A stretch of 19,220 nucleotides of DNA from Oscillospiraceae bacterium (GTDB lineage: Bacteria; Bacillota_A; Clostridia; Saccharofermentanales; Saccharofermentanaceae). Every line of letters begins with the position of its first letter. Positions within the stretch are counted from its first letter, which is position 1. Location: positions 1 to 19,220 of the forward strand of contig CADAXO010000020.1 of assembly GCA_902791885.1 (NCBI GenBank), in the 5' to 3' direction. The notes beneath the pieces were generated by a model. It ran no database searches. It was given only the letters and a program-made list of their open reading frames with translations, and was not told the origin of the DNA. The position numbers and the translations under genes are program-made. Below are positions 88-19,220 of the stretch, one piece after another.

Positions 88-100
88 AAAACGCATAGGA

Positions 101-129: not shown

Positions 130-136
130 CTGACAT

Positions 137-162
137 TATAATGCTATAATCAATTACGGAGG
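137..162 (+). promoter_or_regulatory. extended -10 promoter and RBS of lipoprotein gene
   Basis: Two TATAAT hexamers occur at 137-142 and 145-150. The second is preceded by TG plus one base, making a perfect extended -10 (TGnTATAAT, 142-150). No good -35 is present at the usual distance, which is acceptable for an extended -10 promoter. A start near 157 would leave a 5' UTR of only about ten bases, and the first hexamer would give about eighteen. The ribosome binding site GGAGG is at 158-162, four bases before the ATG at 167. Confidence 0.5.
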
Positions 163-166
163 ATAT

Positions 167-1354: not shown

Positions 1355-1355
1355 T

Positions 1356-2269: not shown

Positions 2270-2283
2270 CGGGAGGAGAAGAA

Positions 2284-4474: not shown

Positions 4475-4486
4475 TTCCTTTAAAAT
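4458..4486 (+). promoter_or_regulatory. possible icd promoter
   Basis: TTGCAT at 4458-4463 and TAAAAT at 4481-4486 are separated by exactly 17 bp, overlapping the end of holA. A start near 4493 would give a leader of about 24 bases before icd. The -35 matches consensus in only three of six positions, so this is a candidate and not a firm call. The 42-base gap shows no terminator, so readthrough from holA is also possible. Confidence 0.35.
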
Positions 4487-4516
4487 AGTGCAGTTAATAA
4501 GAAGTTGGAGGAAATT

Positions 4517-5713
4517 ATGTCTAAGATTCAGATGAAGACCCCGCTCGTCGAGATGGACGGCGATGAGATGACAAGAGTTGTTTGGAAGCAGATTAAGGAT
4601 ATCGTTATTCTGCCTTTCGTAGATCTTAAGACCGAGTATTTTGATCTTGGTTTGCCTAACAGAGATGCTACAGGTGACCAGGTTACTATAGATTCAGCGA
4701 ACCGCACTAAGGAACTCGGTGTCGCTGTAAAGTGTGCAACTATCACTCCTAACGCTCAGCGTATGGAAGAATATAATCTCCACAAGATGTGGAAGAGCCC
4801 TAACGGAACTATCAGAGCTATGCTCGACGGTACTGTATTCAGATCACCGATACTCGTTAACGGCATCAATCCTTTCGTAAGCTGCTGGAAGAAACCTATT
4901 ACTATCGCAAGACATGCTTACGGTGATGTTTACAGAAACTCCGAGATCCGTGTTGACGGTCCTGCTACTGCAGAGCTTCTTGTTACATATCCTGACGGAA
5001 GACAGGAAAAGAAGACTATCTTCGAGTTCGACGATGCAGGTATCATCCAGGGCATCCACAACACAGATAAGTCCATCGCGGCTTTCGCACGTTCATGCTT
5101 CACTTATGCTCTTGAGGTTAAGCAGAGCATCTGGTTCGCTACAAAGGATACAATTTCCAAGGTTTACGACCACAGATTCAAGGACATCTTCGCAGAGATC
5201 TTCGAGGCTGAGTTCAAGGACAGATTCGAAGCTGCAGGTATCGAGTATTTCTACACACTTATCGATGATGCTGTAGCAAGAGTTATGAGATCCGAGGGCG
5301 GTTTCATCTGGGCATGCAAGAACTATGACGGTGACGTTATGTCCGACATGCTCGCTTCTGCCTGCGGTTCACTTGCTATGATGACTTCCGTTCTTGTTTC
5401 ACCTGACGGTGTATTCGAGTACGAGGCTGCTCACGGAACTGTTACACGTCACTACTACAAGTACCTCAAGGGTGAAGCTACTTCCACGAATCCTATGGCT
5501 ACGCTTTTCGCTTGGACAGGCGCTCTGAAGAAGAGAGCTGAGCTCGATGAGCTCCCTGAGCTTGCTGCTTTTGCCGAGAAGCTCGAAAAGGCTTCCATCG
5601 AGACTATCGAATCCGGAACGATCACAGGTGACCTTAAGAACCTCATCGATGTACCGGTAAAGAATGTTGTTAATACAGAAGACTTCTTAAAGGCTATTGC
5701 CGAGAAGCTTTAA
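4517..5713 (+). CDS. icd: NADP-dependent isocitrate dehydrogenase, homodimeric type
   Basis: The enzyme oxidatively decarboxylates isocitrate to 2-oxoglutarate, giving NADPH and the carbon skeleton of glutamate. It is the short homodimeric subfamily shared with eukaryotic IDH1/IDH2, not the E. coli type. Substrate-site residues are visible: KSPNGTIR at 93-100 (Ser94, Asn96, Arg100), Arg109 and Arg132 in [10 protein letters not shown]. Metal-binding aspartates lie in [16 protein letters not shown] and the following YDGDVMSD. The NADP-specifying segment is [17 protein letters not shown] with TSTNP after it. ATG 4517 is preferred because GGAGG (4507-4511) precedes it by five bases. An in-frame TTG at 4505 would put the ribosome binding site inside the gene. 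Length is 398 residues, normal for the family. Codon choice looks biased toward frequent codons, consistent with high expression. No citrate synthase or aconitase gene is adjacent. Confidence 0.97.
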
Positions 5714-5729
5714 TAAAGGAGACAGAACA

Positions 5730-6251
5730 ATGACTTATTACGAGACATGGATCGATAATTCCGAGAACGTTAAGGATCAGAATTCCTATTCACGTTATAT
5801 CAACACATACTATGCAATGGAGAGGGATGCTTATGACAAGATCCTTTCCGCTTATCCTGATAATAAGGAATTAACTTCCGGCAAAGCTTCTGAGCTTGCT
5901 GCTAAGCTCGGCTTTAATAAGGAGACTATGGATATCTTCGTAGGTTTCCTTGACGGTATCCAGACATCTCTTAACAAGGAGATCGACGTTGAGCATGTTG
6001 ATGACGATACCGAGATCGATCTTGATATCGATTATGAGAAGCTTTACTACAACATGAGAGATGCCAAGGCTTCATGGCTCTTCAAGCTTTCTTCCTGGAA
6101 GAAGGTTCTTGATGAGAACAAGACTGCAGAGATCGCAAGAGCTTACAGAGAAGCTAATATCGCTCATTCCAACAAGGTAGGGAGAAACGATCCCTGTCCT
6201 TGCGGTTCCGGCAAGAAATACAAGAATTGTTGCGGTAAAAAGCAAGTTTAA
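5730..6251 (+). CDS. SEC-C zinc-motif protein of unknown function
   Basis: The 173-residue product is mostly helical and acidic and ends in a SEC-C motif. [19 protein letters not shown] spans residues 151-169, with Cys156, Cys158, Cys167 and Cys168 able to bind one zinc. The same motif closes many SecA proteins, where it contacts SecB or ribosomes, and it also occurs on many stand-alone bacterial proteins. A very acidic stretch ([17 protein letters not shown]) lies near 88-104. No other domain is recognised. ATG 5730 is chosen because AAAGGAG lies about eight bases before it; an upstream in-frame start would fall inside icd. Only a short gap separates it from icd and two bases from mreC, so it is probably co-transcribed with both. 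The motif call is firm; the role is unknown. Confidence 0.85.
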
Positions 6252-6253
6252 AA

Positions 6254-7156
6254 ATGCGAAGACTGCTGACCAACAAGCGGTTCCTAACAGTCGTTTCATT
6301 ACTGATAATCCTGGCTGTGATCATTCTCGGTTCTATTCCGGGAAGTCCGCTTAATGCAGTTTTGAAGCCTGTCGGAGCAATCGTTAATCCGGTTCAGAAA
6401 GTTGTAAAGTTTACCGGTAATGAGATTTCCGGCTTCTGGGCAGCACTTACTGACGGTATCGCCATCAGAAACGAGAACGAGCAGTTAAGAGCCGAGATAG
6501 CCGAACTTCAGTATCAGCTTACGCAAAATGAAGAGGCTGCCATAAGATATGAGGAGTTGCAGGAGGCTTTCCACATAAGGGAAGTCTTCAGTAATTACGA
6601 TATCTTCGGCGCCTCTGTTTTGTCGCGTGAATCTGACGAGTGGTTCTCCGTTATCAGAGCAGGTGTCGGCACTTCTGACGGTATTAACCTCGAACCCGGT
6701 CAGTCACTTGCCGTTGTTGATGTAAGAATGAATCTCGTTGGCCGTGTTATCGAAGTCAATGACGATGATTCCGTAATTCTTTTGCTGCTGCACGAAGGAT
6801 TCCAGGTAAGCGGTAAGGTCAATGCCGTTAACGGTGCTACATTCATCGTAACGGGTGATGCTTCATTGAAGCAGCAGGGTCTTTGTCTCGTTACTGGTAT
6901 CGATCCCGATACTATCCCTTCAGTAGGCGATGAGATCGTAACGTCAGGTGACGGCGGTCTTTTCCCTCAGGGTATTCCGATCGGTGTTATCGAATCAGTC
7001 GACACTTCAAATGAACTTAATATAACGGCTACTTTAAGACCTTATTCAGATGTAGAGGATCTTAATGATATCTTCATTATGGTTCCTTTCGAAGATGAGA
7101 CAGTGACAGATATAGATTCAGGTGAAACTGATGAGACGGTCGTATCAGATTCGTAA
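6254..7156 (+). CDS. mreC: rod shape-determining protein MreC
   Basis: MreC links the cytoplasmic MreB/MreD machinery to periplasm-facing cell-wall synthases and activates PBP2 during elongation. The 300-residue product shows the expected order: a short positive N-terminus (MRRLLTNKR), one membrane helix at about 9-27, a coiled coil at about 72-105 (NENEQLRAEIAELQYQL), and then a double beta-barrel with VLSRESDEWFSVIRAGVGTSDGI, LVGRVIEVNDDDSVILLL and GIDPDTIPSVGDEIVTSGDG. A Thr/Asp/Glu-rich C-terminal tail follows. The start lies two bases after the SEC-C stop with no clear Shine-Dalgarno, so translation is probably coupled. The 3' end overlaps mreD by 26 bases. mreB, which usually precedes mreC, is not here. 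Confidence 0.95.
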   Translation: MRRLLTNKRFLTVVSLLIILAVIILGSIPGSPLNAVLKPVGAIVNPVQKVVKFTGNEISGFWAALTDGIAIRNENEQLRAEIAELQYQLTQNEEAAIRYEELQEAFHIREVFSNYDIFGASVLSRESDEWFSVIRAGVGTSDGINLEPGQSLAVVDVRMNLVGRVIEVNDDDSVILLLLHEGFQVSGKVNAVNGATFIVTGDASLKQQGLCLVTGIDPDTIPSVGDEIVTSGDGGLFPQGIPIGVIESVDTSNELNITATLRPYSDVEDLNDIFIMVPFEDETVTDIDSGETDETVVSDS

Positions 7157-7745
7157 GTTCGTAGTATATGCGATCTATCTTTTGCTGTTCTCCACAGTCC
7201 AGGTAACATTCCCGGGCTATCTTTCTATTTACGGCATCCGTCCCGATCTCATGTTTGTACTTGTAGTGCTTTGTGCTTACATGTTCGGTTTCTATGACGG
7301 GATCATTTTCGGCGCTTTGGCGGGAATGATAAGAGACTATTTCTCGGCTCCTTCGATAACCGGCATAGACGGTACTGTTACAACGGCATTCGGTATCGGT
7401 TTGCTTCTGATGTTCGCGGCGGCGGCATTCGGTTCATCGTTCTTTACCGAAAGGATCGAAAGGAACTTTGTCTTATCTTTGGTTGCCGTGTTAATAGCGA
7501 CTTTGGTATATAAGACCGTCGGTCATACGGTTATATTCATCTGGTCCAAGATAGTCGGAATGACCTATAATCTTGAGCTTTCGCAGATACTTCTTAAGTC
7601 GGTTCTTCCGCAGATGCTTCTTAATCTTGTGGCAGCCGTACCTTTATATCTTTTGCTTCGGTTCGCAGGCCCTTACAAGGGCGGTGTTAATCCCGTGCTT
7701 ATCGATGAGAAGAGAAAGGGGGATAACGCTTGGCTGACAATGTAA
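7131..7745 (+). CDS. mreD: rod shape-determining protein MreD
   Basis: MreD is the small polytopic membrane protein of the elongasome. The 204-residue product is strongly hydrophobic with about five to six predicted membrane spans. It has the typical PGYLSIYGIRPDLMFVLVVLCA and FYDGIIFGALAGMIRDYFSA segments (compare the family's ...PDLLLILVV... and G.v.Gf..Gll.D). ATG 7131 is preferred to the in-frame GTG at 7122 because AGGTG at 7120-7124 is correctly placed six bases before it. The gene overlaps the end of mreC by 26 bases and the start of mrdA by 16, so the three should be translated from one mRNA. Confidence 0.9.
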   Translation: MRRSYQIRKFVVYAIYLLLFSTVQVTFPGYLSIYGIRPDLMFVLVVLCAYMFGFYDGIIFGALAGMIRDYFSAPSITGIDGTVTTAFGIGLLLMFAAAAFGSSFFTERIERNFVLSLVAVLIATLVYKTVGHTVIFIWSKIVGMTYNLELSQILLKSVLPQMLLNLVAAVPLYLLLRFAGPYKGGVNPVLIDEKRKGDNAWLTM

Positions 7746-10033
7746 GCAACGACAAGAAAGAATCCGCAATCTCTTCGATTCTCGATATTATCGGTAACAG
7801 ATACTTTATCTTAGGCCTGATATTCTGCGTATTCGGTGCTGTCATTTTGTATATGACGGCTGCTTTGCAGTTCTCAGGTTATCAGAGGACTATCTCCGCA
7901 TCATCAGAGGGTGTATCGAGACAGTATACCGTAACGGCCCCCAGAGGCGACATAATCGATGCCAACGGTATTGTTCTTGCAACATCCCAGGAAGTCAATA
8001 CGGTTATGATCTCCAACGCTTATATGGAAGATGAAGATCTTAATGCCATGTGCCTGGAATTAAGCTATCTTTTCGACGAGTATAACTGCATAAGCGAGTC
8101 TGAACTCGATGAATACTTTGCTACCGAGCCTTTCAGATTCCTTAAGGATGAGACAGCTATCAGACTTTGGCAGACAGACCATAACCTTTTTGATCTCGAG
8201 GATTATTCCGAAGGAATCATTGTCACGTATTCTGATAATTACGTTAAGACAGATCCGCAGGTTTTCTATCTGTTCTTAAGACAGTTCTTTGATATCGATA
8301 CGAATTATTCCGAAGAAGAGGCATACAGGATCATAAGGATCAGATTCCAGATCTTTAAGGATAACTGGTCATTCCTCACGGGTACGCCCGTCGAGATCGC
8401 TACCAATGTGCCTGATGAGCTTGTTACGATACTTAATGAGCAAAACTACCATTATATGGGAGTCATCACGACCAAGACTTACAGAAGGACATATACTCCG
8501 GCAGCCCAGTTATCGAGCCATGTCGTAGGATACGTAGGAAGGATCTCACAGGAGTCCTTAACACAGCTCGCGCCTTACGGCTATGCGAACAGCGACCTTG
8601 TCGGTCAGTCCGGCGTTGAGTCCCAGATGGAAAGATATCTTCACGGCTATTCAGGTATCTCGACATATAACACATGGACGACAGAGGGACAGGAAGGTGT
8701 ATTCTTCCCGTCTGATTACGGTATGCCTGCCCAAAGAGGCGCAACTGTTCAGCTTACGATAGATACCGATCTTCAAAGAGTGGGAATCGAAGCTCTTAAG
8801 ACGTATATCGAAGATGCCATGAATGCCGAGATTATTGAACAGACGGGATATAAGACCGCTAATGCCGGAGCTTTCGTCGTTATGGATGTTAACTCCGGTG
8901 CTGTCCTTGCCATGGGTTCTTATCCGAACTTCGACCCTAATGACTTCGTTCTCTCGATGTACGGAGATGAGAGGGCAGAGGAGCAGCTCGAATACTATCT
9001 CGGCCTCGGTGAGTATGAGGATATTACTGCCGAGGACATGCCTTTGTGGAACAGAGCCATCATGTCCCAGTATGCTCCGGGTTCAACATTTAAGATGTGT
9101 ACGGCTCTGGCGGCTCTCGAGACCGGCGTTATCTCTCCGGGATCTACCTGGTATTCATGTGATTCGCCTATAGATATCGGCGGTTGGACATTCCGCTGCC
9201 TCGAGTTTGCTGACGGCGGTCACGGACCGCTCGACCTTAACGGCGCCATGGCTACATCATGTAATATCTACTTCATGAGACTCGGTGTTGATACGGGTAT
9301 CGATAATATCGATTCTATGGGTGAAAGACTTGGGCTTGGCGAGTATACGGGTATCGATCTTCCGGGTGAGATCAGAGGTATCAGAGCGAGCCGTGAGACT
9401 AAGATACTTCTTCACGAATATGAATACGACCGTACATGGTTCCCTGCCGATACTGCCCAGTCAGCCATCGGACAGTTTGATAACTGCTTTACGATCATGC
9501 AGCTTTGCCGTTATACGGCGGGAATAGCCACCAACCGTCTCGTAACACCGTATGTTATAGATAATGTAACCTCGGATGACGGTACGATCCTTTATGAAGG
9601 ACAGACCCAGTCTATACCGCTTGATATAAGCGAAGAGAATATCGAAGCCGTAAGATATGCTATGCGCTGCGTTGTTACCGGTACCTCGACATGGCCCGGA
9701 ACTGCACAGGATATCTTTAACAACTTCCCGATAGATGTTGTCTGTAAGACGGGAACGGCTGAGACGGGTTATGAGGAGATACGTAAAGAGTATTCGAACG
9801 GTTTATTCGTGTGTTATGCTCCTGCCGAAGATCCCCAGATCGCGATCGCTCTTGTTGTAGAAAGAGGTGAGTGGGGAGCATCTACTGCCGTAATCGCTCA
9901 GAAACTTCTTTCCGCTTATTTTGATGTTGCACCGTCAAGAGCTCAGGTAATGCTTGATACTATACCTCTTACGGGCGATGATCTTGATGCTCTTATTGAT
10001 ACGATTCCACAGGAAACAGAGCCTGAAATCTAA
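7730..10033 (+). CDS. mrdA: penicillin-binding protein 2 (peptidoglycan D,D-transpeptidase)
   Basis: This class B PBP cross-links peptidoglycan during lateral-wall growth. The 767-residue product has one N-terminal membrane anchor (about 24-46), a dimerisation domain starting at APRGDIIDANG, and a transpeptidase domain. All three active-site motifs are intact: Ser452-Thr-Phe-Lys455 (acylation serine), Ser510-Cys-Asn512, and Lys673-Thr-Gly675. The dimerisation domain carries a long insertion of Asp/Glu/Tyr-rich sequence (about 100-230), as in many Gram-positive PBP2 proteins. It begins with TTG at 7730, supported by AAAGGGGG (7715-7722) seven bases before; no ATG is placed better. Overlap with mreD by 16 bases ties it to the Mre operon. 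RodA, its usual glycosyltransferase partner, is not adjacent. Confidence 0.95.
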   Translation: MADNVSNDKKESAISSILDIIGNRYFILGLIFCVFGAVILYMTAALQFSGYQRTISASSEGVSRQYTVTAPRGDIIDANGIVLATSQEVNTVMISNAYMEDEDLNAMCLELSYLFDEYNCISESELDEYFATEPFRFLKDETAIRLWQTDHNLFDLEDYSEGIIVTYSDNYVKTDPQVFYLFLRQFFDIDTNYSEEEAYRIIRIRFQIFKDNWSFLTGTPVEIATNVPDELVTILNEQNYHYMGVITTKTYRRTYTPAAQLSSHVVGYVGRISQESLTQLAPYGYANSDLVGQSGVESQMERYLHGYSGISTYNTWTTEGQEGVFFPSDYGMPAQRGATVQLTIDTDLQRVGIEALKTYIEDAMNAEIIEQTGYKTANAGAFVVMDVNSGAVLAMGSYPNFDPNDFVLSMYGDERAEEQLEYYLGLGEYEDITAEDMPLWNRAIMSQYAPGSTFKMCTALAALETGVISPGSTWYSCDSPIDIGGWTFRCLEFADGGHGPLDLNGAMATSCNIYFMRLGVDTGIDNIDSMGERLGLGEYTGIDLPGEIRGIRASRETKILLHEYEYDRTWFPADTAQSAIGQFDNCFTIMQLCRYTAGIATNRLVTPYVIDNVTSDDGTILYEGQTQSIPLDISEENIEAVRYAMRCVVTGTSTWPGTAQDIFNNFPIDVVCKTGTAETGYEEIRKEYSNGLFVCYAPAEDPQIAIALVVERGEWGASTAVIAQKLLSAYFDVAPSRAQVMLDTIPLTGDDLDALIDTIPQETEPEI

Positions 10034-10062
10034 AGAGTTTCTGACAGATTAACAATATATCA

Positions 10063-10112
10063 TTGCTTTTTAGCTTGTTTTTTTATACAATGTCAATAGT
10101 TTTTAATGGAGG
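10063..10112 (+). promoter_or_regulatory. promoter and RBS for the MGS-like / MBL pair
   Basis: In the 88-base gap after mrdA, TTGCTT (10063-10068) and TACAAT (10086-10091) are separated by 17 bp. Each is close to the sigma-A consensus, and they lie in an AT-rich stretch. Transcription would start near 10098, giving a leader of about 24 bases. GGAGG (10108-10112) lies nine bases before ATG 10122. No terminator hairpin is visible after mrdA, so some readthrough is possible. Confidence 0.5.
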
Positions 10113-10121
10113 AATTTTGTA

Positions 10122-10529
10122 ATGAAGATCGTTCTGATGGCTGACAACCGTAAAACCGAGCTTCTCGTAAATTTCTGCATTGCTTATAAGACTTTACTCA
10201 CAAAACATCAGCTGATTTCCGTTTACAGTACTGCTAAGTACCTGAAGTCTGCTGTCGGTATTGAAGTATCAGGACTCAATGTAGATTACTTAGGCGGTAT
10301 CGAGCAATTGGCTTCGAGAGCGGAGTTCGATGAGATCGACTGCGTTATTTATTTAAGGGATGCAGCTGCCACTGATGTGGAATCCGCACCTACCGATCTT
10401 CTTAAGACCTGTGATAAGAACAATATTCCTTATGCTACAAATCTCGCTACTGCCGAGATCCTTATACTTGCAGTTGACAGAGGAGATCTCGATTACAGAA
10501 GCTGGCTTAAGGATTCCAAGGTCTCCTGA
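10122..10529 (+). CDS. methylglyoxal synthase-like protein, probably catalytically inactive
   Basis: The 135-residue product aligns by eye along its whole length with methylglyoxal synthase (MgsA), which turns dihydroxyacetone phosphate into methylglyoxal. Shared landmarks are the first strand, KTLLTKHQL, a GGxxQ turn at 58-62, IDCVIYLRD (73-80) and the very characteristic NIPYATNLATAE (101-112). Most of the chemistry is gone, however (E. coli numbering in brackets). His19 is Asp8, the TGTT phosphate loop [45-48] is VYST, Ser65-Gly66 is Val-Asp, the catalytic Asp71 is Ile60, His98 is Glu87 and Asp101 is Pro90. Only Asp91 remains, as Asp80. It is therefore likely a ligand-binding or regulatory MGS-fold protein, or an enzyme with another substrate. 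The TGA overlaps the next ATG by one base. Confidence 0.75.
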   Translation: MKIVLMADNRKTELLVNFCIAYKTLLTKHQLISVYSTAKYLKSAVGIEVSGLNVDYLGGIEQLASRAEFDEIDCVIYLRDAAATDVESAPTDLLKTCDKNNIPYATNLATAEILILAVDRGDLDYRSWLKDSKVS

Positions 10530-11137
10530 TGAAGGTTGATATTTATCCTAACGGTCCTTTAGGGTCAAATATGTACATTATCAACACCGATTTCGGGTGT
10601 TTTCTTATCGATCCTTCAGTTGATCCCGATAAAGTGCCTATCGATGTGCGTCCGTATAAGATCGACGCTATTCTCATGACACACGGCCATTTCGACCATA
10701 TTAATGCCGTCGATGAATGGAAGTGGATCTACAAGGATTCTCCGATCTTTCTTGCAGAAGAAGATCAGGTAATGCTTAAAGATTCGGCGAAGAACGGATC
10801 CGGTATGTTTTCTGAACTTCGTACTTATACTTCCACAGCTTATGATGTGGATAAGCTTAAGTTTGACGGTATTACCGTGATCAAGACCCCGGGACATTCC
10901 ATGGGAAGCGTATGCTACCTTTTCGAAGAGGGCGAAGATAAAGTGCTTTTCAGCGGAGATACTGTTTTCGAAGGTTCTGTCGGAAGGACCGACCTTTACG
11001 GAGGAAGCAGCAGAGCACTTATGAATTCGCTGAAGCTTCTTAAGGATATTCCGGCTTCTACTGACATTTATCCCGGCCACGGACCTGCTACTACTATGAA
11101 AGAGGAGCTCACATTTAATCCCTTCTTTAATTTCTAA
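10529..11137 (+). CDS. glyoxalase II-like metallo-beta-lactamase fold hydrolase
   Basis: The 202-residue product has the complete two-metal site of the hydroxyacylglutathione hydrolase-like branch: THGHFDH at 51-57 (His52, His54, Asp56, His57), His123 in TPGHSMGS, bridging Asp144 in FSGDTVF, and His184 in YPGHGP. The short length, without the C-terminal glutathione-binding domain of classical GloB, places it with YcbL/small thioesterase-like members. These hydrolyse thioesters or are orphans. GRTDLYGGS is typical of this branch. The start overlaps the stop of the MGS-like gene (TGATG), so the two proteins are made together. The pairing hints at methylglyoxal chemistry, but the upstream partner seems inactive and no glyoxalase I is near. 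The fold is certain; the substrate is not. Confidence 0.9.
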   Translation: MKVDIYPNGPLGSNMYIINTDFGCFLIDPSVDPDKVPIDVRPYKIDAILMTHGHFDHINAVDEWKWIYKDSPIFLAEEDQVMLKDSAKNGSGMFSELRTYTSTAYDVDKLKFDGITVIKTPGHSMGSVCYLFEEGEDKVLFSGDTVFEGSVGRTDLYGGSSRALMNSLKLLKDIPASTDIYPGHGPATTMKEELTFNPFFNF

Positions 11138-11145
11138 ATGCGTTG

Positions 11146-11182
11146 TGTTATATTTTTTTAGTTAATGCGCGTTTTAAGGAGG
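11146..11182 (+). promoter_or_regulatory. possible extended -10 promoter and RBS of pheST
   Basis: In the 52-base gap, TG plus one base precedes TATATT (11149-11154), forming an extended -10 with one mismatch and no clear -35. The start would be near 11161, with a leader of about 29 bases. AAGGAGG (11176-11182) is seven bases before ATG 11190. The leader is far too short to hold a T-box. Confidence 0.4.
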
Positions 11183-11189
11183 CTTATTT

Positions 11190-12236
11190 ATGAGCGATCT
11201 TCGGGAAAGTCTTAATCAGACCCGTGAGGAATTCGAGAAAAAGATCAAAGAGATCCAGAGTCTAGCCGATATAGAGAAGATCAGAGTAGAGTACTTTGGT
11301 AAGAAGGGAAAGCTTACCGGCGTTTTGCGCGGTATGGGTAACCTTAAGCCTGAAGAAAGACCTGAAGCAGGACGTATGGTTAATGAAGTCCGTGCGAAGA
11401 TGGAAGAGGCTTTTGCTCAGAATCAGGCAAAGATCAAGGCTTTGGAGAGCTCCTATAAGCTTAAGAAAGAAATCATCGATGTTACTTTGCCCACACATTA
11501 CGAAGGTGCGGGTGCAAGACATCCTCTTAATAATGCGATCAACGAGATCTGCGATATCTTCTTAGGTCTCGGATACAGCATCGGTGAAGGCCCCGAAGTA
11601 GAGTACGATAAGTACAACTTCGAGCTTTTGAGAATCCCTAAGGGACATCCCGCAAGAGATACTCAGGATACGTTCTATATAAGCGACAATATCCTTCTCA
11701 GAACACAGACTTCAGGTATGCAGATCCGTATCATGGAAGAGCTTACCAAGAACGGCGGAAAACCTCCGATCAAGGTAGTCTGCCCGGGTAAGGTATACCG
11801 TCAGGATACACTTGATGCTACACATTCCCCTGTATTCCATCAGATTGAGGGCCTTGTTGTAGATAAGGGCGTTACTATGGGCGACCTTGTAGGTTCCTTA
11901 AGACTTTTTGCCAAGAAACTCTTCGGCGAGAAGACAGAGATCAGATTAAGACCCCATCATTTCCCTTTCACGGAGCCTTCTGTTGAGGTTGACCTTACCT
12001 GCTGGAAGTGCGGCGGCTGCGGATGCAACGTTTGTAAGGGCGAAGGCTGGATCGAGGTTCTCGGTGCAGGTATGGTACATCCGGAAGTACTTGAGAACTG
12101 CGGTATCGATTCTTCTGTATACAGCGGATTCGCTTTCGGTATCGGTGTAGAAAGAACGGCTATGGGAAGATACGGTATTGATGACATCAGACTTCTTTAT
12201 GAGAACGATGTACGTTTCTTAAAGCAGTTCAAGTAA
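11190..12236 (+). CDS. pheS: phenylalanyl-tRNA synthetase alpha subunit
   Basis: PheS is the catalytic half of the (alpha-beta)2 class II synthetase that charges tRNA-Phe. The 348-residue product has an N-terminal helical arm that binds tRNA as a coiled coil (about 1-90). The class II core follows, with HPLNNAINEICDIFLGLGY, GPEVEYDKYNFELLRIPKGHPARD, LLRTQTSGMQIR, motif 2 around VYRQDTLDATHSPVFHQIEG and motif 3 in GFAFGIGVERTAMGRYGIDD. The CWKCGGCGCNVCKGEGW cysteine-rich segment before LGAGMVHPEVL is the usual one for bacterial PheS. AAGGAGG precedes the start. pheT follows after twelve bases in the standard pheST order. Confidence 0.98.
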   Translation: MSDLRESLNQTREEFEKKIKEIQSLADIEKIRVEYFGKKGKLTGVLRGMGNLKPEERPEAGRMVNEVRAKMEEAFAQNQAKIKALESSYKLKKEIIDVTLPTHYEGAGARHPLNNAINEICDIFLGLGYSIGEGPEVEYDKYNFELLRIPKGHPARDTQDTFYISDNILLRTQTSGMQIRIMEELTKNGGKPPIKVVCPGKVYRQDTLDATHSPVFHQIEGLVVDKGVTMGDLVGSLRLFAKKLFGEKTEIRLRPHHFPFTEPSVEVDLTCWKCGGCGCNVCKGEGWIEVLGAGMVHPEVLENCGIDSSVYSGFAFGIGVERTAMGRYGIDDIRLLYENDVRFLKQFK

Positions 12237-12248
12237 GGAGAAAGATTG

Positions 12249-14675
12249 ATGAAAGCACCTGTAATTTGGTTAAAGGATTTTACTGATATTGATGTTTCTG
12301 CCAAGGAATTGGCAGATAAGATGACACTCACCGGTTCCAAGGTTGAGGAAGTTATAGATTATAAGCTTTCCGGCGTTTATGCCGCTAAGATCGTAAGCGT
12401 TGCCGAGCATCCTGATTCCGATCACCTTCATATTCTTAAGGTTGACTTCGGTTCTGATGAATTGGGCCACGATGTTCAGATCGTATGCGGAGCACCCAAT
12501 GTTTATGAGGGTATGCTCTGTCCTGTCGCTGCAGTAGGAGCAGTTCTTCCCGAGATCACCATTAAGAAGGGCAAGATCAGAGGCGTTGAGAGCTTCGGTA
12601 TGTGCTGCTCAGGCGAAGAGCTCGGAGCTATAGCTAACGGCAAGCCCGGCGCTGACGAGTACGGTCTTTGGGACTTAAGCAAGCTCCCCGAGCCTCCGGC
12701 ACTCGGAACAGACCTTCGTGAATTCCTTAAGGTTGATGCTCTTATCACGATCGACTTCGAGATCACATCCAACAGACCTGACTGCTTCTCTGTTGAAGGA
12801 TTGGGCCGTGAGGCTGCAGTTTCACTCGGCAAGCCTTTCCGACCTGTTGATTCCAGGTTAAAGCTTGAGGGTTCTTTGAATTCTGAAGATGTTGCCAAGG
12901 TAGAGATCCTTGCACCCGATCTTTGCTACCGTTACTGCTCAAGAACGGTAGAAGACGTTACTATCGGACCTTCTCCCGAGTGGCTTGCCCAAAAGCTTGT
13001 AGCTGCAGGCATGAGACCCATCAACAATATCGTTGATATCACAAACTATGTCTGCCTCGAATTAGGTCAGCCTATGCACGCTTTCGATCTTGATTATCTT
13101 AAGAATAATCACATTATCGTAAGAACTGCTGAGGACGGTGAGAAGACTGTTACTTTGGACGGCAATGAGCACATTCTTGATAAGGATATGCTTGTTATCG
13201 CTGATGAGGAGAAGGTCTGTGCCATCGCAGGTGTAATGGGAGGCGAGAACTCCGAAGTTCTTCCTACAACGAAAAGCATTCTTTTCGAGTCGGCTACATT
13301 CAATGCCGTAAGCGTAAGAAAAACTGCTATCAGAAACGGACTTCGTACAGAAGCTTCCTCAAGATACGAGAAGGGACTTGATCCCGAGAATGCTTTAAGA
13401 GCACTCGACCGTGCCTGCGAGCTTGTTGAGCTTCTCGGCTGCGGTAAGGTAAGTAAGGGCCTGATCGATGTTTACCCTACAAAGCGCCCTGCGAAGAAGA
13501 TCGAGTTCAGACCAGATTGGATCAATAACTTCATCGGAATCAATGCAACTGAGGACTTCATGAGAAAGACTCTTGCCGATCTCGGCTGCAGCTTCGAGAA
13601 GGATGGCGAAAAGGAGATGATCGTACCTCCGACTTTCCGTCCTGACCTTGAGGGAGAAGCTGATATCGCTGAGGAGATCGCAAGATTCTTCGGTTATAAC
13701 AACATCGAGCCCACACTTCTTTCAGGTAAGGAGACAACTCTCGGCGGAAGAACACGTGAGCAGAATCTTGCTGAGAAGATCAGAAATACGCTTGTTAACT
13801 GCGGTTTCTATGAAGCTATCACATATTCTTTTGAGAGCCCTTCCGATCTTGATCTTCTCAAGGTATCCGAAGACAGTTCTTTAAGAAGACAGGTTAAGAT
13901 CTCTAATCCTTTGGGTGACGATTCTTCCGTAATGAGATCAACAATGCTTCCTTCGATGCTTCGAATCGCTGCAAGAAACTCCAACAGAGGTGTTCCTTCC
14001 GCGAAGGTATTCGAGCTTGCTTATGTTTATATCCCTGATGAGGATCCCGCTTTGCTCCCTGAGGAAAGACCTATGGTAAGCGGCTTCTACTATGATAACG
14101 CCGTAGGTGACAGTGCAGGTATCTTCTATCATGTAAGAGGAATCATCGAGGAATTGGGCAAGGTTCTTGATATCAAGTCTTTGAACTTCGAGCCTTTGAC
14201 AGACAATCCTTCATTCCATCCGGGAAGAACTGCCAAGATCATCGTTAACAATAAGCAGTGCGGTGTTATCGGTATTATCCACCCCGAAGTCGCCGATGCT
14301 TTCGAGGCTCCTGAGAAGGCCTGCTTCTTCGAATTCGAAGCAAATGCATTCATCAATGCAGCTAAGACGGAAAGAGTTTATAAGCAGATCCCTAAGTTCC
14401 CCGGAATCTCCAGAGATATTGCTATCGTCGTTAATAAGGAAGCAGCTGTAGGAGATATCTTGAGAACATGTAAGTCCGCAGGCGGCAAACTTCTTAAGGA
14501 AGTTGAATTCTTCGACGTTTATGAAGACAGCAAGCTCGGCGAAGGCAAGAAGTCTGTAGCTATATCCCTTATCTTCAGAGATGACGGCAGAACACTTGCA
14601 GATACTGACATTAAGGGACCTTACGACACTATTATCGCCAAGCTCGAGAAAACATACGATGCACACCTGAGATAA
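12249..14675 (+). CDS. pheT: phenylalanyl-tRNA synthetase beta subunit
   Basis: PheT supplies tRNA recognition and editing to the synthetase. The 808-residue product shows the complete domain order. First comes an N-terminal segment, then an EMAP/tRNA-binding OB fold (about 40-150, HPDSDHLHILKVDFG, IVCGAPNV). B3/B4 editing region sequence follows (RPDCFSVEGLGREAA, NNIVDITNYVCLELGQPMHA, GVMGG), then B5 (TFRPDLEGEADIAEEIARFFGY) and a catalytic-like domain (SNPLGDDSSVMRSTMLPSML). It ends in an FDX-ACB anticodon-binding domain (KFPGISRDIAIVV to the end). ATG 12249 is preferred over the adjacent in-frame TTG 12246; AAGGAG (12235-12240) is eight bases before it. The stop at 14675 is three bases before the repeat array that controls or borders the next unit. 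Confidence 0.98.
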   Translation: MKAPVIWLKDFTDIDVSAKELADKMTLTGSKVEEVIDYKLSGVYAAKIVSVAEHPDSDHLHILKVDFGSDELGHDVQIVCGAPNVYEGMLCPVAAVGAVLPEITIKKGKIRGVESFGMCCSGEELGAIANGKPGADEYGLWDLSKLPEPPALGTDLREFLKVDALITIDFEITSNRPDCFSVEGLGREAAVSLGKPFRPVDSRLKLEGSLNSEDVAKVEILAPDLCYRYCSRTVEDVTIGPSPEWLAQKLVAAGMRPINNIVDITNYVCLELGQPMHAFDLDYLKNNHIIVRTAEDGEKTVTLDGNEHILDKDMLVIADEEKVCAIAGVMGGENSEVLPTTKSILFESATFNAVSVRKTAIRNGLRTEASSRYEKGLDPENALRALDRACELVELLGCGKVSKGLIDVYPTKRPAKKIEFRPDWINNFIGINATEDFMRKTLADLGCSFEKDGEKEMIVPPTFRPDLEGEADIAEEIARFFGYNNIEPTLLSGKETTLGGRTREQNLAEKIRNTLVNCGFYEAITYSFESPSDLDLLKVSEDSSLRRQVKISNPLGDDSSVMRSTMLPSMLRIAARNSNRGVPSAKVFELAYVYIPDEDPALLPEERPMVSGFYYDNAVGDSAGIFYHVRGIIEELGKVLDIKSLNFEPLTDNPSFHPGRTAKIIVNNKQCGVIGIIHPEVADAFEAPEKACFFEFEANAFINAAKTERVYKQIPKFPGISRDIAIVVNKEAAVGDILRTCKSAGGKLLKEVEFFDVYEDSKLGEGKKSVAISLIFRDDGRTLADTDIKGPYDTIIAKLEKTYDAHLR

Positions 14676-14677
14676 CT

Positions 14678-14717
14678 TTGTCGAAAATTGTCGATTTTTG
14701 TTATCAATTGTCGGTAA
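14678..14717 (+). repeat. four 10-bp phased TTGT direct repeats, Spo0A-box-like
   Basis: Four tandem 10-bp units begin at 14678, 14688, 14698 and 14708. Three open with TTGTCG, while the third is TTGTTA. Spacing is exactly one helical turn, so all copies face the same side of DNA. The first unit contains TGTCGAA (14679-14685), identical to the core of the Bacillus/Clostridium Spo0A box. The second has TGTCGAT and the fourth TGTCGGT. The array starts three bases after pheT and runs straight into possible -10 hexamers. It has the layout of a tandem response-regulator site. Assignment to Spo0A is an inference from the core match alone. Confidence 0.65.
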
Positions 14718-14723
14718 TATAGT
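14715..14723 (+). promoter_or_regulatory. possible activator-dependent -10 for the pilin-like operon
   Basis: TAATAT (14715-14720) and the overlapping TATAGT (14718-14723) directly follow the repeat array. No -35 lies at 16-18 bp. The nearest TTG hexamer, TTGTCG at 14688-14693, is 21 bp from TAATAT. Spacing of about 21-22 bp is known at Spo0A-activated sigma-A promoters such as spoIIE and spoIIG of Bacillus subtilis. Transcription would start near 14727, so the mRNA would begin almost exactly with the hairpin at 14729. Confidence 0.35.
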
Positions 14724-14728
14724 ACCCC

Positions 14729-14774
14729 AAACCCCTGTATCCTTTAGGTAAGACTAAGGAATACGGGGGTTTTT
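14729..14774 (+). terminator. strong hairpin with T-tract: pheST terminator and leader of next gene
   Basis: The left arm (14729-14747) and right arm (14754-14772) pair in 18 of 19 positions, with one C-A mismatch and two G-U pairs, around a 6-base loop. The top is CTTTAG/CTAAGG and the base is AAACCCC/GGGGGTTT, followed by TTTTT (14770-14774). This is a good Rho-independent terminator for pheST. The next ATG is at 14778, and the only Shine-Dalgarno-like run, GGGGG (14765-14769), lies in the 3' arm. The same element must therefore be read through and opened for that gene to be made. Confidence 0.85.
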
Positions 14775-14777
14775 ATT

Positions 14778-15023
14778 ATGAGTACACTGGAGACATCGAT
14801 AGTCATCACATTTGTTATGCTGGTTCTGTGCGGTCTTATCATTCTTCCCGCGAGGCTTTGCGCAGATACGGTCACGGACTGCAGGCTTGCGATCGAAGAT
14901 GTTAATGAGCCTGACTCCGATACAATGTCGGCAGAAAGACTTAACACATTCCTTACAGGAATCTCTGAAAACTACAGGATCATCTACGGATCCATAGCTG
15001 AGGAGGTTTCTGAAGATGAATAA
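14778..15023 (+). CDS. small pilin-like (TadE/Flp-type) membrane protein
   Basis: The 81-residue product starts MSTLETSIVITFVMLVLCG. A Glu at residue 5 leads into one membrane helix (about 6-27), and a 50-residue acidic outer part follows (TDCRLAIEDVNEPDSD...). The Leu-Glu-Thr-Ser-Ile run aligns with Leu-Glu-Thr-Ala-Ile of the third gene in this cluster. It fits the Glu+5 rule of type IV/Tad pilins and TadE-like pseudopilins. There is no visible prepilin leader: the codons before the ATG lie in the hairpin and contain no usual start codon. The GGGGG at 14765-14769 is eight bases upstream. The end overlaps the next gene by eight bases. The pilin-like reading is an inference from the N-terminus; the body is not recognised. 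Confidence 0.65.
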   Translation: MSTLETSIVITFVMLVLCGLIILPARLCADTVTDCRLAIEDVNEPDSDTMSAERLNTFLTGISENYRIIYGSIAEEVSEDE

Positions 15024-16347
15024 AAGAGGAACAACAACGCTCTTTCTGGCTATAATTCTCTCTGCTTTGATCCTTGTGGAGACTACTTATGTTGCTTATG
15101 TCGCGGATCTCAGCAGAAGGCTTACATATACAAGAGCTCTTAAAGAACAGACTGAAGTTTATCTTGCAAGTTACGACAGGCAGTTATTTAAAGCTTACGG
15201 GATATATGCATTTGATTCGTCTTCGATCGATTCGCGGGTGTTTGATGAGGTCCTGGCGGCTAACGGGTATGAGACGGGCGACGTGATATATGCAAGCGGC
15301 ATGTATTATATCGATACCGAAGTATTAAGGCGTTCGGTCGCATCTTTTTATGCCTACAGAACAACAGGAATCCTGTTTCAAAGGTTTGCTTCTCAGATTA
15401 CGGCACTTATAGATCAGGTTAGTAACGGCATCATATCTCAGCTTAGAGAGTTTACTTCAAGCCCTGCTGCAGGGATTCTGAAAAGGATAATCGGCGGAGG
15501 TTCTGAGATTACGGAAGCGATATCAACCGCAATAGAGACCTTAGGCTTTGATGAATCGTCGCCTGCCGTTCAGACGTTCCTTAACATCATCTCGACGTTA
15601 GGTGCGATTACGAATGAGAATCCGGATTTCGGAAACAGCTTTGATCCTTCGGATCTTGGATTCGTATACGACATACTGAATCTCAGTTCGACGATGTTTG
15701 AGGTCGGAACTGATTTCAACGAGAACTTCAATATTCATGCATGTCTTGCCGATTATGCATCAAATAACTTCGACTGCTTCATGAAGGAAGATACAACACT
15801 TAACGGTACTTCGTTTGAGGAGTTTCATGAAAGCAATATCTGTGACTCGGAATATATCCTAACAGGTCTTGAAGGTGTGCCTGCGTGCGCCCTTACAGAT
15901 TTTTATATCTTCGGATGTCTGTATCTTAGAAGCATAGTGGTAAATCTTACGGATCCGACTAAAGCTGAGATAATATCCGCAGTCGCAGATATATTGTCTG
16001 CCGTAATCACCATAGTATCTGCAGGAGCCTTACCGCTGCCGCCATATGTATATCAGATCGTAATTGTGCTGCTTTTGGCTGAGATAGATGCTTTTATCGA
16101 TCTTAATACGGTTTTAAGTGGCGGGGAGATCACTTTCTTAAGTATAGGGGCGATAGATGCACTTACACTTGATTACAGGTCATTTCTTACTGTTTTTATG
16201 AATTACGTGCCGGACGGTCTGCTGTTGGAACGTATGGTCAACGTTTTACAAAGGGATTTTCCTTCTTATCTTACAGGTATAGATACAGAGACGGATTACG
16301 GAAATGAGACACTTATTTATGAGGGACGATATGAATATTATCAATAA
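15016..16347 (+). CDS. Tad-associated membrane-anchored protein, DUF5702-like
   Basis: The 443-residue product opens with KRGTTTLFLAIILSALILVE, a membrane helix at about 7-27. After it come RRLTYTRALKEQTEVYLASY and DRQLFKAYGIYAFD. That pattern (G-x-x-T-x-F..., then a segment like 'SxxAxYxxxLxxxYGLfxxD') is what I know from DUF5702 proteins, found with Tad pilus genes of Clostridia. The large middle is probably extracellular. A second hydrophobic region lies near 320-355 (ILSAVITIVSAGALPLPP and a VIVLLLAEIDA helix). AGGAGG (15001-15006) is nine bases before the ATG, and both ends overlap neighbours (8 and 17 bases), so the three pilin-like genes form a unit. The lack of Glu+5 suggests it is an accessory component and not a polymerised pilin. 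The family call is tentative. Confidence 0.65.
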   Translation: MNKRGTTTLFLAIILSALILVETTYVAYVADLSRRLTYTRALKEQTEVYLASYDRQLFKAYGIYAFDSSSIDSRVFDEVLAANGYETGDVIYASGMYYIDTEVLRRSVASFYAYRTTGILFQRFASQITALIDQVSNGIISQLREFTSSPAAGILKRIIGGGSEITEAISTAIETLGFDESSPAVQTFLNIISTLGAITNENPDFGNSFDPSDLGFVYDILNLSSTMFEVGTDFNENFNIHACLADYASNNFDCFMKEDTTLNGTSFEEFHESNICDSEYILTGLEGVPACALTDFYIFGCLYLRSIVVNLTDPTKAEIISAVADILSAVITIVSAGALPLPPYVYQIVIVLLLAEIDAFIDLNTVLSGGEITFLSIGAIDALTLDYRSFLTVFMNYVPDGLLLERMVNVLQRDFPSYLTGIDTETDYGNETLIYEGRYEYYQ

Positions 16348-17305
16348 GCACGGAACTATCTCACTCGAGACGGCCATATCATTTTCAGTTGTTATGGTCT
16401 TTATAACAGCGATCATAAGCGTTACGGCATTTCTGAGAACTGATATCCTTATGCAAAGAGCTGTCGAACAAAGCTGTGAGGATATAGCTTACTATATGCC
16501 TTTCTCGATAATAGCATCTGATTCGGTTTCTACTCTTGTTAATGCTCTGCCGGATAATTCATCTGATACAAGTATGATCGAACGCGTAGGATCTATCGTT
16601 GCAGGTGTGGATGAATTTTCAAATAACGGATTAAGGGCAGGGGCCATGAATCTTTTGTTCGGAAGGTCGTTTACAGATGACATAGCCTCTGAATATGCAG
16701 AGTATAACGGAAGCCGTTTCTTCGGTCCGGATGAGATATATGTTGATTTTGACATCGAGGATTATTATATCGACGTTTACGTAGTTTACAGCGTAAATAC
16801 CATTATCGGACCTGTCAGCAGACAGATTGTGGCTGCGATCCCGTTTTACGGCGATTTCGAGCTGTTCCTGTCTGAAAGTGAGGCGGAGGAGACTGACGGA
16901 GACAGTATATGGCAGCAAAATAACTTTGTAAGGGGAAAATACTTCCAGGATAAGTACGGAGCCAATCTTCCTTCGACATTTCCGACCATCAATTCCTATA
17001 ACAACGGCAGGATAAGCTCTATCGTAAGTATCGATCTTAACCGTTCGACATATTCTTCGCCTGCGGTAACCATGATGAGGATAACGGAAGAAATAGAACA
17101 ATTGGCAGCATTTGACGGAGCCGATGTTCAGATCAGCGGTTCAAGGTATGTGGTAAACGGCAGCGATATTACTCAAAGAACTTTGATTGTGGTGATTCCC
17201 GAGGATTCTCCCGAATCGGGAAGGTCTGCGATAAACTCTTTAACAGAATATGCAAATGTGCGGGGAATAGAGCTTCAGGTCGTGGAAGACGGCTGTTCTT
17301 TATAA
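16331..17305 (+). CDS. TadE-like pseudopilin
   Basis: ATG 16331 is chosen, with GAGGG at 16321-16325; in-frame ATGs at 16304 and 16319 lie further inside the previous gene. The 324-residue product begins with a short basic leader ending NKHG. TISLETAISFSVVMVFITA follows, so a prepilin-type cut after Gly8 would leave Glu at position +5 followed by a membrane helix, the TadE/TadG pattern. The large C-terminal part is probably extracytoplasmic. It contains DDIASEYAEYNGSRFFGPDE, a short hydrophobic stretch near 150-175, and Ser/Asp/Asn-rich sequence, with no domain I recognise. Genes for the pilus ATPase, platform proteins and prepilin peptidase are absent from the window, so the protein must use machinery encoded elsewhere if it is assembled. 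Confidence 0.7.
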   Translation: MNIINKHGTISLETAISFSVVMVFITAIISVTAFLRTDILMQRAVEQSCEDIAYYMPFSIIASDSVSTLVNALPDNSSDTSMIERVGSIVAGVDEFSNNGLRAGAMNLLFGRSFTDDIASEYAEYNGSRFFGPDEIYVDFDIEDYYIDVYVVYSVNTIIGPVSRQIVAAIPFYGDFELFLSESEAEETDGDSIWQQNNFVRGKYFQDKYGANLPSTFPTINSYNNGRISSIVSIDLNRSTYSSPAVTMMRITEEIEQLAAFDGADVQISGSRYVVNGSDITQRTLIVVIPEDSPESGRSAINSLTEYANVRGIELQVVEDGCSL

Positions 17306-17330
17306 ATAATTATTTGTTTTAAGGGATAAG

Positions 17331-17606
17331 TTGGGTTATTATTGTATGGATTATTTTAGAAAGGTGTGTCCTTCAGCGATGAACAGCAATGTAAGAAAGC
17401 CTTCCATAGCCGTTACTTCGGTAAGCAGCAGTATCGACGGTAAACAGTCGATCGGTGATGTTCTGCGCAAGGCTAAGAAGGAACTTATCATCAGACGGAT
17501 CTGCTTCGGACTTATAATACTTTTATTTGTCCTTTGGGTAGTATATCTGTTTGTAAGCGGTACGGTATCCGACCTGCTTGATGCTTCTTTCGCTCTTATT
17601 GATTGA
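17331..17606 (+). CDS. small single-span membrane protein of unknown function
   Basis: The product has up to 91 residues: a polar N-terminus of about 50, a basic patch KAKKELIIRR, one membrane helix (CFGLIILLFVLWVVYLFV) and a short tail SGTVSDLLDASFALID. The start is uncertain. TTG 17331 has AGGGA at 17322-17326 four bases before it, ATG 17346 has no site at a useful distance, and ATG 17379 has AAAGGTG (17360-17366) twelve bases upstream. The basic patch before the helix suggests an N-in orientation. The arrangement is like the anchor of type I signal peptidases, but no catalytic box follows, so that is not claimed. The stop overlaps the next ATG, which supports the gene being real. Confidence 0.6.
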   Translation: MGYYCMDYFRKVCPSAMNSNVRKPSIAVTSVSSSIDGKQSIGDVLRKAKKELIIRRICFGLIILLFVLWVVYLFVSGTVSDLLDASFALID

Positions 17607-17986
17607 TGATGGAATTCAATACAGACGAGAGAAAGGCTCTGGACAGCCTGTATAAAGCGATCCTCACACTTAAGACTCCGGAAGAGCTTCATCTGTTCTT
17701 CGAAGATCTCTGCTCGAGAAACGAGTTATGTTCCATGTCACACAGATGGCAGATACTCGAACTCATTGATGAAGGCTTGAGCTATGAAGAGATAATAAGA
17801 GAACTGGCGCCCGATAAATCTTCTGATAAGAAGTCTTCAGGAGATGAGAGAGATACCAAGAAGGGTAAAGAGAGGAACGCAACTAAAGTAAGTTCAACAA
17901 CAATTTCGCGTGTTAAGGCATGCTATAACAATCCTGAAGGCGGTTACAGAACTGCATTGGGGAGACTTAAAGGAGACATGAAGTAA
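17606..17986 (+). CDS. YerC/YecD-type TrpR-like DNA-binding protein with HTH insertion
   Basis: The 126-residue product matches the YerC/YecD family of TrpR-like repressors: [27 protein letters not shown], then [17 protein letters not shown], then [20 protein letters not shown]. Members are usually about 100 residues. Here about 26 extra residues (positions about 66-92, rich in Lys, Asp, Ser, Glu and Gly) interrupt the helix-turn-helix between its first helix (YEEIIREL) and the recognition helix ([11 protein letters not shown]). In B. subtilis YerC, as I recall it, the same interval is about 12 residues. No ligand or target is known from sequence. ATG 17606 overlaps the previous TGA by one base, with no Shine-Dalgarno, so translation is coupled; ATG 17609 is equally possible. 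The stop overlaps secA. Confidence 0.85.
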
Positions 17987-19220
17987 TGGGTTTAGAGGCT
18001 ATTTTCGGTACTCACAGCGATCGCGAGATCAAGAAGATCGAACCTATCAAGAAAAAGGTTCTGGCTCTTGAAGAAGAGTATTCCAAGCTTACAGATGAGC
18101 AGCTTAAGGCTAAGACAGAAGAGTTCAAGTCCAGATACAAGGAAGGTGAGACGTTAGACAGTCTTCTTCCTGAAGCATTCGCTACTATCAGAGAGGCTGC
18201 ATGGAGAGTATTGGGCCTTAAGCCTTATCCGGTACAGGTCATCGGCGGTATCGTTCTTCATCAGGGAAGAATCGCCGAGATGAAGACGGGTGAAGGTAAG
18301 ACTCTTGTTGCTACAATGCCTGTTTACCTTAATGCACTGACAGGAAAGGGTGTACACGTAGTTACTGTTAACGATTACCTTGCCAAGCGTGACTCCGAAT
18401 GGATGGGTAAAGTTTATAAGTTCTTAGGCCTTACGGTCGGACTTATCATTCACGATATCCCCAACAAGGACAGACAGGGCATGTATGCATGCGATATCGT
18501 ATACGGAACTAACAACGAGTTCGGTTTCGATTACTTGAGAGACAACATGGTAGTTTCCAAGAGACAGCTTGTTCAGAGGGAACTTAACTACGCTATCGTC
18601 GACGAGGTTGACTCAATCCTTATCGATGAGGCAAGAACACCTCTCATTATTTCAGGCAGAGGAGAGTCTTCTTCAGATCTTTATCAGAAGGCAGATTCCT
18701 TCGTACGTCAGTTGAAGCCTTATACGGTTGTAGAGACTGATGACAAGATCGATATGGATGAACTCGTAGGTGATGCTGACTACGTTATTGATGAGAAAGC
18801 CAAGACTTCCGTTATTACCGCCAACGGTATCAAGAAAGCTGAGAAGTACTTCAATATCACTAACCTTTCAGATCCCGAGAACTTCGATCTTCAGCACTAC
18901 ATTAACAATGCTTTGAAGGCACACGGTAACTTCCATAAGGACGAGCAGTACATCGTTACAGAGGAAGGCGAAGTTGTTATCGTTGATGACTTTACAGGAC
19001 GTCTGATGCCGGGAAGAAGATACAGTGACGGACTTCACCAGTCAATCGAGGCTAAGGAAGGTGTTAAGGTTGCAAACGAGAATAAGACTCTTGCTACGAT
19101 TACTTTCCAGAACTTCTTCAGAATGTATGACAAGCTCTCCGGAATGACAGGTACTGCATATACAGAGGAAGCCGAGTTCAGACAGATCTATAACCTCGAC
19201 GTTATCCAGATCCCCACTAA
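17986..19220 (+). CDS. secA: preprotein translocase ATPase SecA (partial, 5' part)
   Basis: The frame is open from ATG 17986 to the window edge (411 codons and two bases), so the 3' half is missing. The product starts [17 protein letters not shown] and reaches the Walker A motif KTGEGKT (Lys105) in the Q-motif/NBD1 region ([20 protein letters not shown]). [29 protein letters not shown] and Walker B ([20 protein letters not shown], Asp206-Glu207) follow. The preprotein cross-linking domain comes next, then [20 protein letters not shown]. SecA drives protein export through SecYEG with ATP. The ATG overlaps the yerC-like stop by one base, and AAAGGAG (17969-17975) inside that gene is its ribosome binding site. 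The spacing to the ATG is ten bases. Confidence 0.98.

Follow-up and report, generated by a model that had tools for sequence, protein, structure and literature searches.

Introduction

In Bacillus and Clostridioides, Spo0A acts at 0A boxes; tandem 0A boxes 10 bp apart occur, as in abrB, and sigma-A promoters activated by Spo0A have a spacing of about 21 nt between the box or -35 region and the -10 element. A stretch of 19,220 nucleotides from an Oscillospiraceae bacterium of the clostridial family Saccharofermentanaceae (assembly GCA_902791885.1, contig CADAXO010000020.1, positions 1 to 19,220 of the forward strand; hereafter the window) carries four such box-like units between pheT and a pilin-like operon. 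A sequence-only reading had proposed that a response regulator, possibly Spo0A, switches on this operon from a promoter with the 21-nt spacing and thereby links developmental state to surface structures. Comparison with related genomes leads us to conclude that the array is probably an activator site of a competence-type promoter read by a Spo0A-type protein, the promoter lying at this locus inside a hairpin.

In Bacilli, one regulator (ComK, ComX/SigX or SigH) jointly controls genes for DNA uptake, DprA and RecA. For this part of the Clostridia, we know of no competence regulator that is established. In the open-access literature, subscription papers lying mostly outside the search, no paper was found that deals with both Saccharofermentans and Spo0A, and none on a Spo0A-type competence regulator. 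According to excerpts of two reports, Tad genes are tied to DNA uptake or transformation in Micrococcus luteus (PMC6668835) and Liberibacter crescens (PMC8513845). For the lysozyme gene e of phage T4, the excerpted source describes a leader in which read-through RNA hides the ribosome-binding site; the 5' strand of the inhibitory structure is encoded where the late promoters are located, so that RNA from these promoters lacks this strand (PMC3014915).

Results

Conservation and abundance of the array

As the sequence-only reading had stated, TTGT starts at 14678, 14688, 14698 and 14708, three copies read TTGTCG and the first holds TGTCGAA (14679-14685); the resemblance to Spo0A boxes lies in the shared TGTCG core. 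Judged from the window sequence alone, where TTGTCG-N4-TTGTCG with at most two mismatches is matched five times (shuffle mean 1.27; two of 200 shuffles reached the same number), the evidence against a chance origin is modest. The reality of the array is settled because relatives keep it. The comparison comprised ten pheT loci from metagenome-assembled genomes, mostly titled Clostridiales, Clostridia or Saccharofermentans and many of them from the rumen. Absence of the array in relatives had been named beforehand as the outcome that would speak against it; nine of the ten loci retain it between pheT and matching pilin-like genes. The array is very likely a regulator site preceding the operon. 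The tenth locus (L010) has a different terminator-like hairpin, different DNA and neither array nor operon.

The genome-wide search suggested by the sequence-only reading was carried out in relatives; in the ten genomes it gave 168 matches to the exact two-unit pattern and 4 to a reversed control. Across 115 genomes of the family the numbers are 932 against 60, with at least one match in 99 genomes, and across 73 genomes that belong to the order but not to the family they are 61 against 41, 14 of the 61 stemming from two genomes. The element is largely a family trait. For alignment, at least 88 distinct arrays were collected from stretches fetched from nine relatives and from the window; this set was drawn from the 150 matches listed, mostly leaves out G009 and includes four members (L062, L033, L076, L023) that look like chance matches or fall inside genes.

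Genes behind the arrays

The first gene behind the 88 arrays encodes a nuclease-like protein of about 250 residues in 24 cases, followed in frequency by the TadE-like operon (10, counting that of the window), PDDEXK_2 proteins (9), a protein of about 150 residues without a family assignment (8), TadZ-like proteins (8), ComM (7), ComEC (6), RecA (5) and others (9); for two arrays no gene was called. In the gene contexts inspected, DprA comes after ComM; TadZ precedes TadA and TadBC, and in L087 also a short Flp-like reading frame called by eye. Domain assignments were made on one representative protein per family. Those of DprA and RecA score above the NCBIfam cut-offs, and those of ComEC, YifB/ComM and TadA below the NCBIfam and above the Pfam cut-offs (T2SSE for TadA); TadBC stays below its Pfam cut-off, the TadE matches are weak, and the TadZ, 150-residue and 250-residue representatives match no Pfam or NCBIfam family.

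With comEC, dprA, comM and recA standing behind one and the same element, the gene set looks like a competence regulon that uses a Tad pilus. The proposed link to developmental state or sporulation is not supported: genes behind the arrays belong to competence and DNA processing, and of 115 genomes only four matched the sporulation marker family spoIVA, each time partially, with one match above the cut-off that covers 65 of 237 positions in a frame of 705 residues. Going by this single marker, the candidate regulator described below does not govern sporulation.

Together, comEC, comM, dprA and recA form the usual transformation set, and this general knowledge argues against the idea, which we consider unlikely, that the regulon serves for taking up DNA as food, or for general recombination and repair, and not for transformation. 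In favor of that idea, recA and nuclease-like families are among the regulon genes, and uptake of DNA as food by a Tad pilus has been proposed for Liberibacter in an excerpt of the respective report (PMC8513845).

Several gene families deserve separate mention. The family of about 250 residues, nuclease-like by eye and without a Pfam match, occurs in eight genomes with several copies per genome (L045, L061, L072, L088, L111, L113, L114 and others), and 11 of its 24 genes look leaderless. Eight genomes have one array each that precedes the protein of about 150 residues (L050, L068, L073, L091, L096 and L101 among these arrays); the two members tested lack a Pfam match. PDDEXK_2 genes, of the transposase/Rpn-type nuclease kind, follow arrays in five genomes (L044, L047, L051, L075, L080). 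Upstream of recA (L043, L079, L097, L109), the array is accompanied by a TTGACT-17-TAGAAT promoter of the conventional kind and by an SOS-box-like palindrome, GAAC..GTTC, both recognized by eye, a combination that suggests double control. Many genomes also encode lower-scoring relatives of the TadA ATPase of about 560 and 375 residues, by length similar to PilB and PilT of type IV pili; none of these is the first gene behind any of the 88 arrays. In L049 and L098, arrays precede tiny hydrophobic reading frames containing MSDYE, which to the eye look like holin-like toxins.

The candidate regulator

Among the 115 family genomes, PF08769, the C-terminal domain of Spo0A, is matched once per genome in 90, always at the locus of one short protein of about 180-220 residues, and no full-length Spo0A was found. 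Of the suggestion that the regulator might be Spo0A, the domain type thus stands and the protein itself does not. A classical Spo0A is rejected as regulator, PF08769 matching only the short protein. In a profile search against solved structures, the recognition helix of this protein, xERxxRYA, aligns with VERAIRHAI of Spo0A; a single regulator sequence matched none of the solved structures, and Foldseek by itself returned nothing at E values up to 0.001, the top seven rows being Spo0A entries. The N-terminal part of about 80 residues was not recognized as a receiver: five regulator proteins tested gave no receiver domain match. The structure model of this part is mostly of low confidence, and two aspartates are invariant in the alignment. 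Database names read Spo0A C-terminal domain-containing protein for one relative and hypothetical protein for the others shown. The short protein is apparently the best candidate for the array regulator, and the only one screened; the genome from which the window derives should encode it as well, as G001-G008 do.

Regulator helix and boxes change together. An alignment of 109 of the 112 proteins (left out were G064, which has an in-frame stop, G054 and G113) shows glutamate at the recognition-helix position in 98, valine in six, serine in three, and lysine and alanine in one each. The nine valine or serine genomes have no or one exact array each, and 10-bp arrays with other letters persist in front of their comM and tadZ genes. 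Boxes were counted in 26 comM regions (28 genomes searched, G024 and G038 without match, a second G051 hit dropped) and in 16 of 26 tadZ regions, ten being dropped mainly for uncertain placement of the TadZ start (G034, G088, G016, G110, G107, G105, G115, G109, G020, G038). TTGTGA occurs 12 times and TTGTCG twice in five regions of the serine clade; TTCGTA and TTCGGA occur eight times each and TTGTCG not at all in eight regions of the valine clade; TTGTCG occurs 73 times and TTGTGA not at all in 27 regions of the glutamate type, four of which come from genomes whose regulator was not found (G009, G075, G084). In both the regulator tree and the TadA tree, valine and serine genomes fall into separate clades, that is, there were two events, and we rely on these rather than on the Fisher test of valine or serine versus glutamate by no or one versus two or more arrays (1.4e-7), which ignores kinship. 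According to part of a published study, Spo0A contacts G2, C4 and G5 of TGTCGAA (PMC3485338); C4 is altered in the serine clade. G087, with TTGTGT boxes and threonine in place of the glutamine that many regulators have two residues before the glutamate, offers a hint only, some TTGTCG genomes also lacking this glutamine.

Likeness of the boxes and the joint change of helix and boxes suggest that the short protein binds TGTCGAA-type boxes. Could another protein bind the array, with regulon and promoter unchanged and the Spo0A-type protein a bystander? Detection of many arrays but no regulator in G009 and G075, possibly a matter of incomplete assemblies, would fit such a situation, as would normal arrays in the lysine (G003, 13 matches) and alanine (G057, 10 matches) variants and the lack of an exact array at all 110 regulator loci scanned (flanks up to 1.5 kb), on which ground autoregulation is rejected too. 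On the other hand, unit sequence and 10-bp spacing agree with recognition of the Spo0A type, and helix and boxes changed jointly in two clades. We regard a bystander role as improbable.

Predicted promoter architecture

Of the 88 arrays, 67 show a -10-like hexamer at offset 59-61 as counted from unit 1, the background being about 3.1 per offset; the number rises to 74 when a register shorter by one unit is permitted. At nine of the ten array-bearing pheT loci (the window and nine relatives), the gap between the last TTGTCG and the -10 amounts to 23-24 nt, and to 34 nt in L005; here the -10 was located by the motif TGTAT[CT], so that its presence, unlike its distance from the array, is partly given by construction. 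The array extends from about -73 to -38 relative to the predicted start, which is an activator position. A TTGACA-like -35 element was looked for at the promoter in the window and not seen, and a generic scan of 14000-15400 reported neither a sigma-70 promoter nor the hairpin. In 11 of 24 genes of the nuclease-like family and five of six comEC genes, ATG follows 11-12 nt after the first -10 base; the assignment of the later -10 is supported because this position fits leaderless RNAs.

The -10-like hexamer noted previously at the array end, TAATAT, is present and its offsets are enriched (36-38; 28 hits among 88 arrays), falling into the -35 region of the later -10. It represents the lesser signal, and the 21-nt spacing does not describe the shared promoter, in which 23-24 nt separate unit 4 from the -10. 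As main -10, TAATAT is rejected on account of the 67 arrays with the later hexamer. That the pilin-like operon is itself driven from TAATAT (14715-14720), the later hexamer being fortuitous, would agree with this enrichment and with a TAATAT at the equal place in L008. It is nevertheless very unlikely, since the leaderless genes agree with the later -10 only, several pheT relatives have no good hexamer beside unit 4, and RNA from TAATAT would start near the hairpin base and carry the whole hairpin.

Two promoter classes occur among the 88 arrays, one with four TTGTCG-like units and one with three such units and then a GTAG-type unit. In the latter (L046, L050, L057 and others), (T)CGTAG or AGTAGGTGT stands in place of the fourth unit and resembles the TTCGTA box of the valine clade.

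A hairpin over the predicted promoter

At all ten array-bearing pheT loci (L010, having neither array nor operon, was left out), a hairpin (-19.5 to -24.9 kcal/mol) contains the -10 in its 5' arm. In nine loci the predicted start falls into the loop, in L006 at the loop edge, and GGGGG occupies the 3' arm 7-8 nt before ATG in all ten. The computed probability that GGGGG is unpaired is at most 0.003 in nine read-through RNAs and 0.196 in that of L003, and it is higher in the own-start RNA in every locus. In the window the T-rich tract is a good one, but several relatives have an imperfect tract; the hairpin may therefore terminate transcription as well as mask the start site. The array does sit between pheT and a terminator-like hairpin, but since it also precedes unrelated genes at a fixed -10 distance, and since comM and tadZ promoters keep the 10-bp period despite changed letters, it is scarcely credible that it acts in RNA as the end part of the pheT transcript instead of as a DNA site.

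Features of the window locus

Coordinates are collected in Table 1. The PF21111 domain (CDI toxin EC869-like, restriction-endonuclease-like fold) covers residues 218-326 of the third operon protein; among four relatives' homologues, two reach the cut-off, one of them exactly, and two fall just below. A nuclease-type domain on a pilin-like protein within a putative uptake regulon is odd and does not imply activity. Downstream of the operon follow a Trp-repressor-family protein (YerC-like, 17603-17986) and a SecA-like frame (17986-19218) that is open to the window end. A tRNA was the sole match in an Rfam search.

Table 1. Positions of the array, the predicted promoter and hairpin elements and the neighboring genes in the window.
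Feature	Position	Strand	Basis or remark
Box unit 1, TTGTCG	14678..14683	+	Sequence; array conserved
Box unit 2, TTGTCG	14688..14693	+	Sequence; array conserved
Box unit 3, degenerate TTGTTA	14698..14703	+	Sequence; unit 3 looser in several relatives too
Box unit 4, TTGTCG	14708..14713	+	Sequence; array conserved
TAATAT	14715-14720	+	21 nt beyond TTGTCG of 14688; offset 37 from unit 1
Predicted -10 hexamer TATCCT	14738..14743	+	24 nt beyond unit 4; offset agreement among arrays
Hairpin	14731..14770	+	Folding z -3.4 (14673-14800); loop 14748-14753; start predicted from the -10 at about 14751, in the loop
GGGGG, likely Shine-Dalgarno sequence	14765..14769	+	Hairpin 3' arm; 7-8 nt 5' of ATG in 10/10 loci
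T-rich tract	14770..14777	+	3' of hairpin; possible terminator tail for pheT transcript
First operon frame, 81 residues, small membrane-anchored protein	14778..15023	+	Homologues in 8/8 relatives compared; no Pfam match
TadE/TadG-like frame, 443 residues	15016..16347	+	DUF5702 17.8 bits, below cut-off; homologues in 8/8 relatives
TadE-like frame, 333 residues, PF21111-type C-terminal domain	16304..17305	+	PF21111 37.5 bits, above cut-off; weak TadE match in relatives
pheT, upstream gene	12246..14675	+	Pfam domains; read-through would cross the hairpin

Discussion

The array and its conservation, the genes behind the arrays, the -10 spacing, the hairpin, the Spo0A-type domain and the joint change of helix and boxes were all observed in silico, and they suggest the following mechanism. 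The short protein with the Spo0A-type domain would bind the four units in head-to-tail order along a single face of the DNA; the bound array, ending just upstream of the -35 region, would aid rather than repress RNA polymerase at the -10 about 24 nt further on. Throughout the family the element would in this way serve promoters of recA, comEC, comM-dprA, the TadZ-TadA-TadBC-Flp operon and the TadE-like operon, and thus a competence phenotype. Read-through RNA from pheT may fold into the hairpin, which would terminate transcription, hide the Shine-Dalgarno sequence or do both, while RNA from the array promoter would start in the loop, lack the 5' arm and be translatable. The sequence-only reading had therefore recognized a true element and the right domain family and had erred in the protein, the main promoter and the programme.

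Some observations weigh against this mechanism. Uptake, pilus or recombination modules follow only 36 of the 88 arrays, and the nuclease-like and PDDEXK_2 families stand behind 24 and 9 of them. The covariation of helix and box rests on two clade events, eight glutamate genomes are without an exact array, and GGGGG becomes only a little more accessible in the own-start RNAs of L001 (0.020) and L006 (0.027). The array-bearing genomes without detected regulator and the lysine and alanine variants mentioned above point in the same direction.

On balance we lean towards a wider view, held with less confidence than the reading of the array itself: a Spo0A-type domain freed from sporulation would be the competence master switch of a largely uncultured family of gut Clostridia, with boxes and helix rewritten clade by clade, a Tad-type uptake pilus and a hairpin-folded promoter that lets mainly its own transcripts be translated. 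If this is true, the DNA-uptake genes of a large lineage of the rumen and gut form a regulon under joint control whose operator code can be read, and this code shows which genes and conditions should be tested for transformation in organisms resistant to genetics. The changes of helix and box over about 110 genomes furthermore provide a natural series for DNA reading by the Spo0A-type domain and bear on how a sporulation-type domain may come to serve another programme.

With Spo0A and its boxes in Bacillus and Clostridioides, the system shares the C-terminal DNA-binding fold, the xERxxRxA recognition helix and the TGTCG core. It differs in that the regulator is short, its N-terminal 80 or so residues not being a recognized receiver, in that four-unit arrays lie upstream of the -35 region and in that the genes behind them are of the competence type, the spoIVA family not being found intact. 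Joint control of uptake, DprA and RecA genes is a feature common to the competence regulons of Bacilli; regulator fold and box are different, however, and Tad rather than ComG-type pilus genes bear the element. A link between Tad genes and DNA uptake, described in the excerpted reports on Micrococcus luteus and Liberibacter crescens, is suggested here as well, in the form of a promoter element shared within a family of Clostridia.

The hairpin finds its closest parallel in gene e of phage T4. The present locus is chromosomal and lies behind pheT; a regulator array is situated upstream, the T-rich tract may double as a terminator, and in L001 and L006 the own-start RNAs keep GGGGG largely paired. 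If it follows the layout of the T4 leader as described in the excerpted source, the predicted promoter would belong to the 5' arm and the likely Shine-Dalgarno sequence would be paired in read-through RNA only; the -10 fits this arrangement in silico in ten of ten loci.
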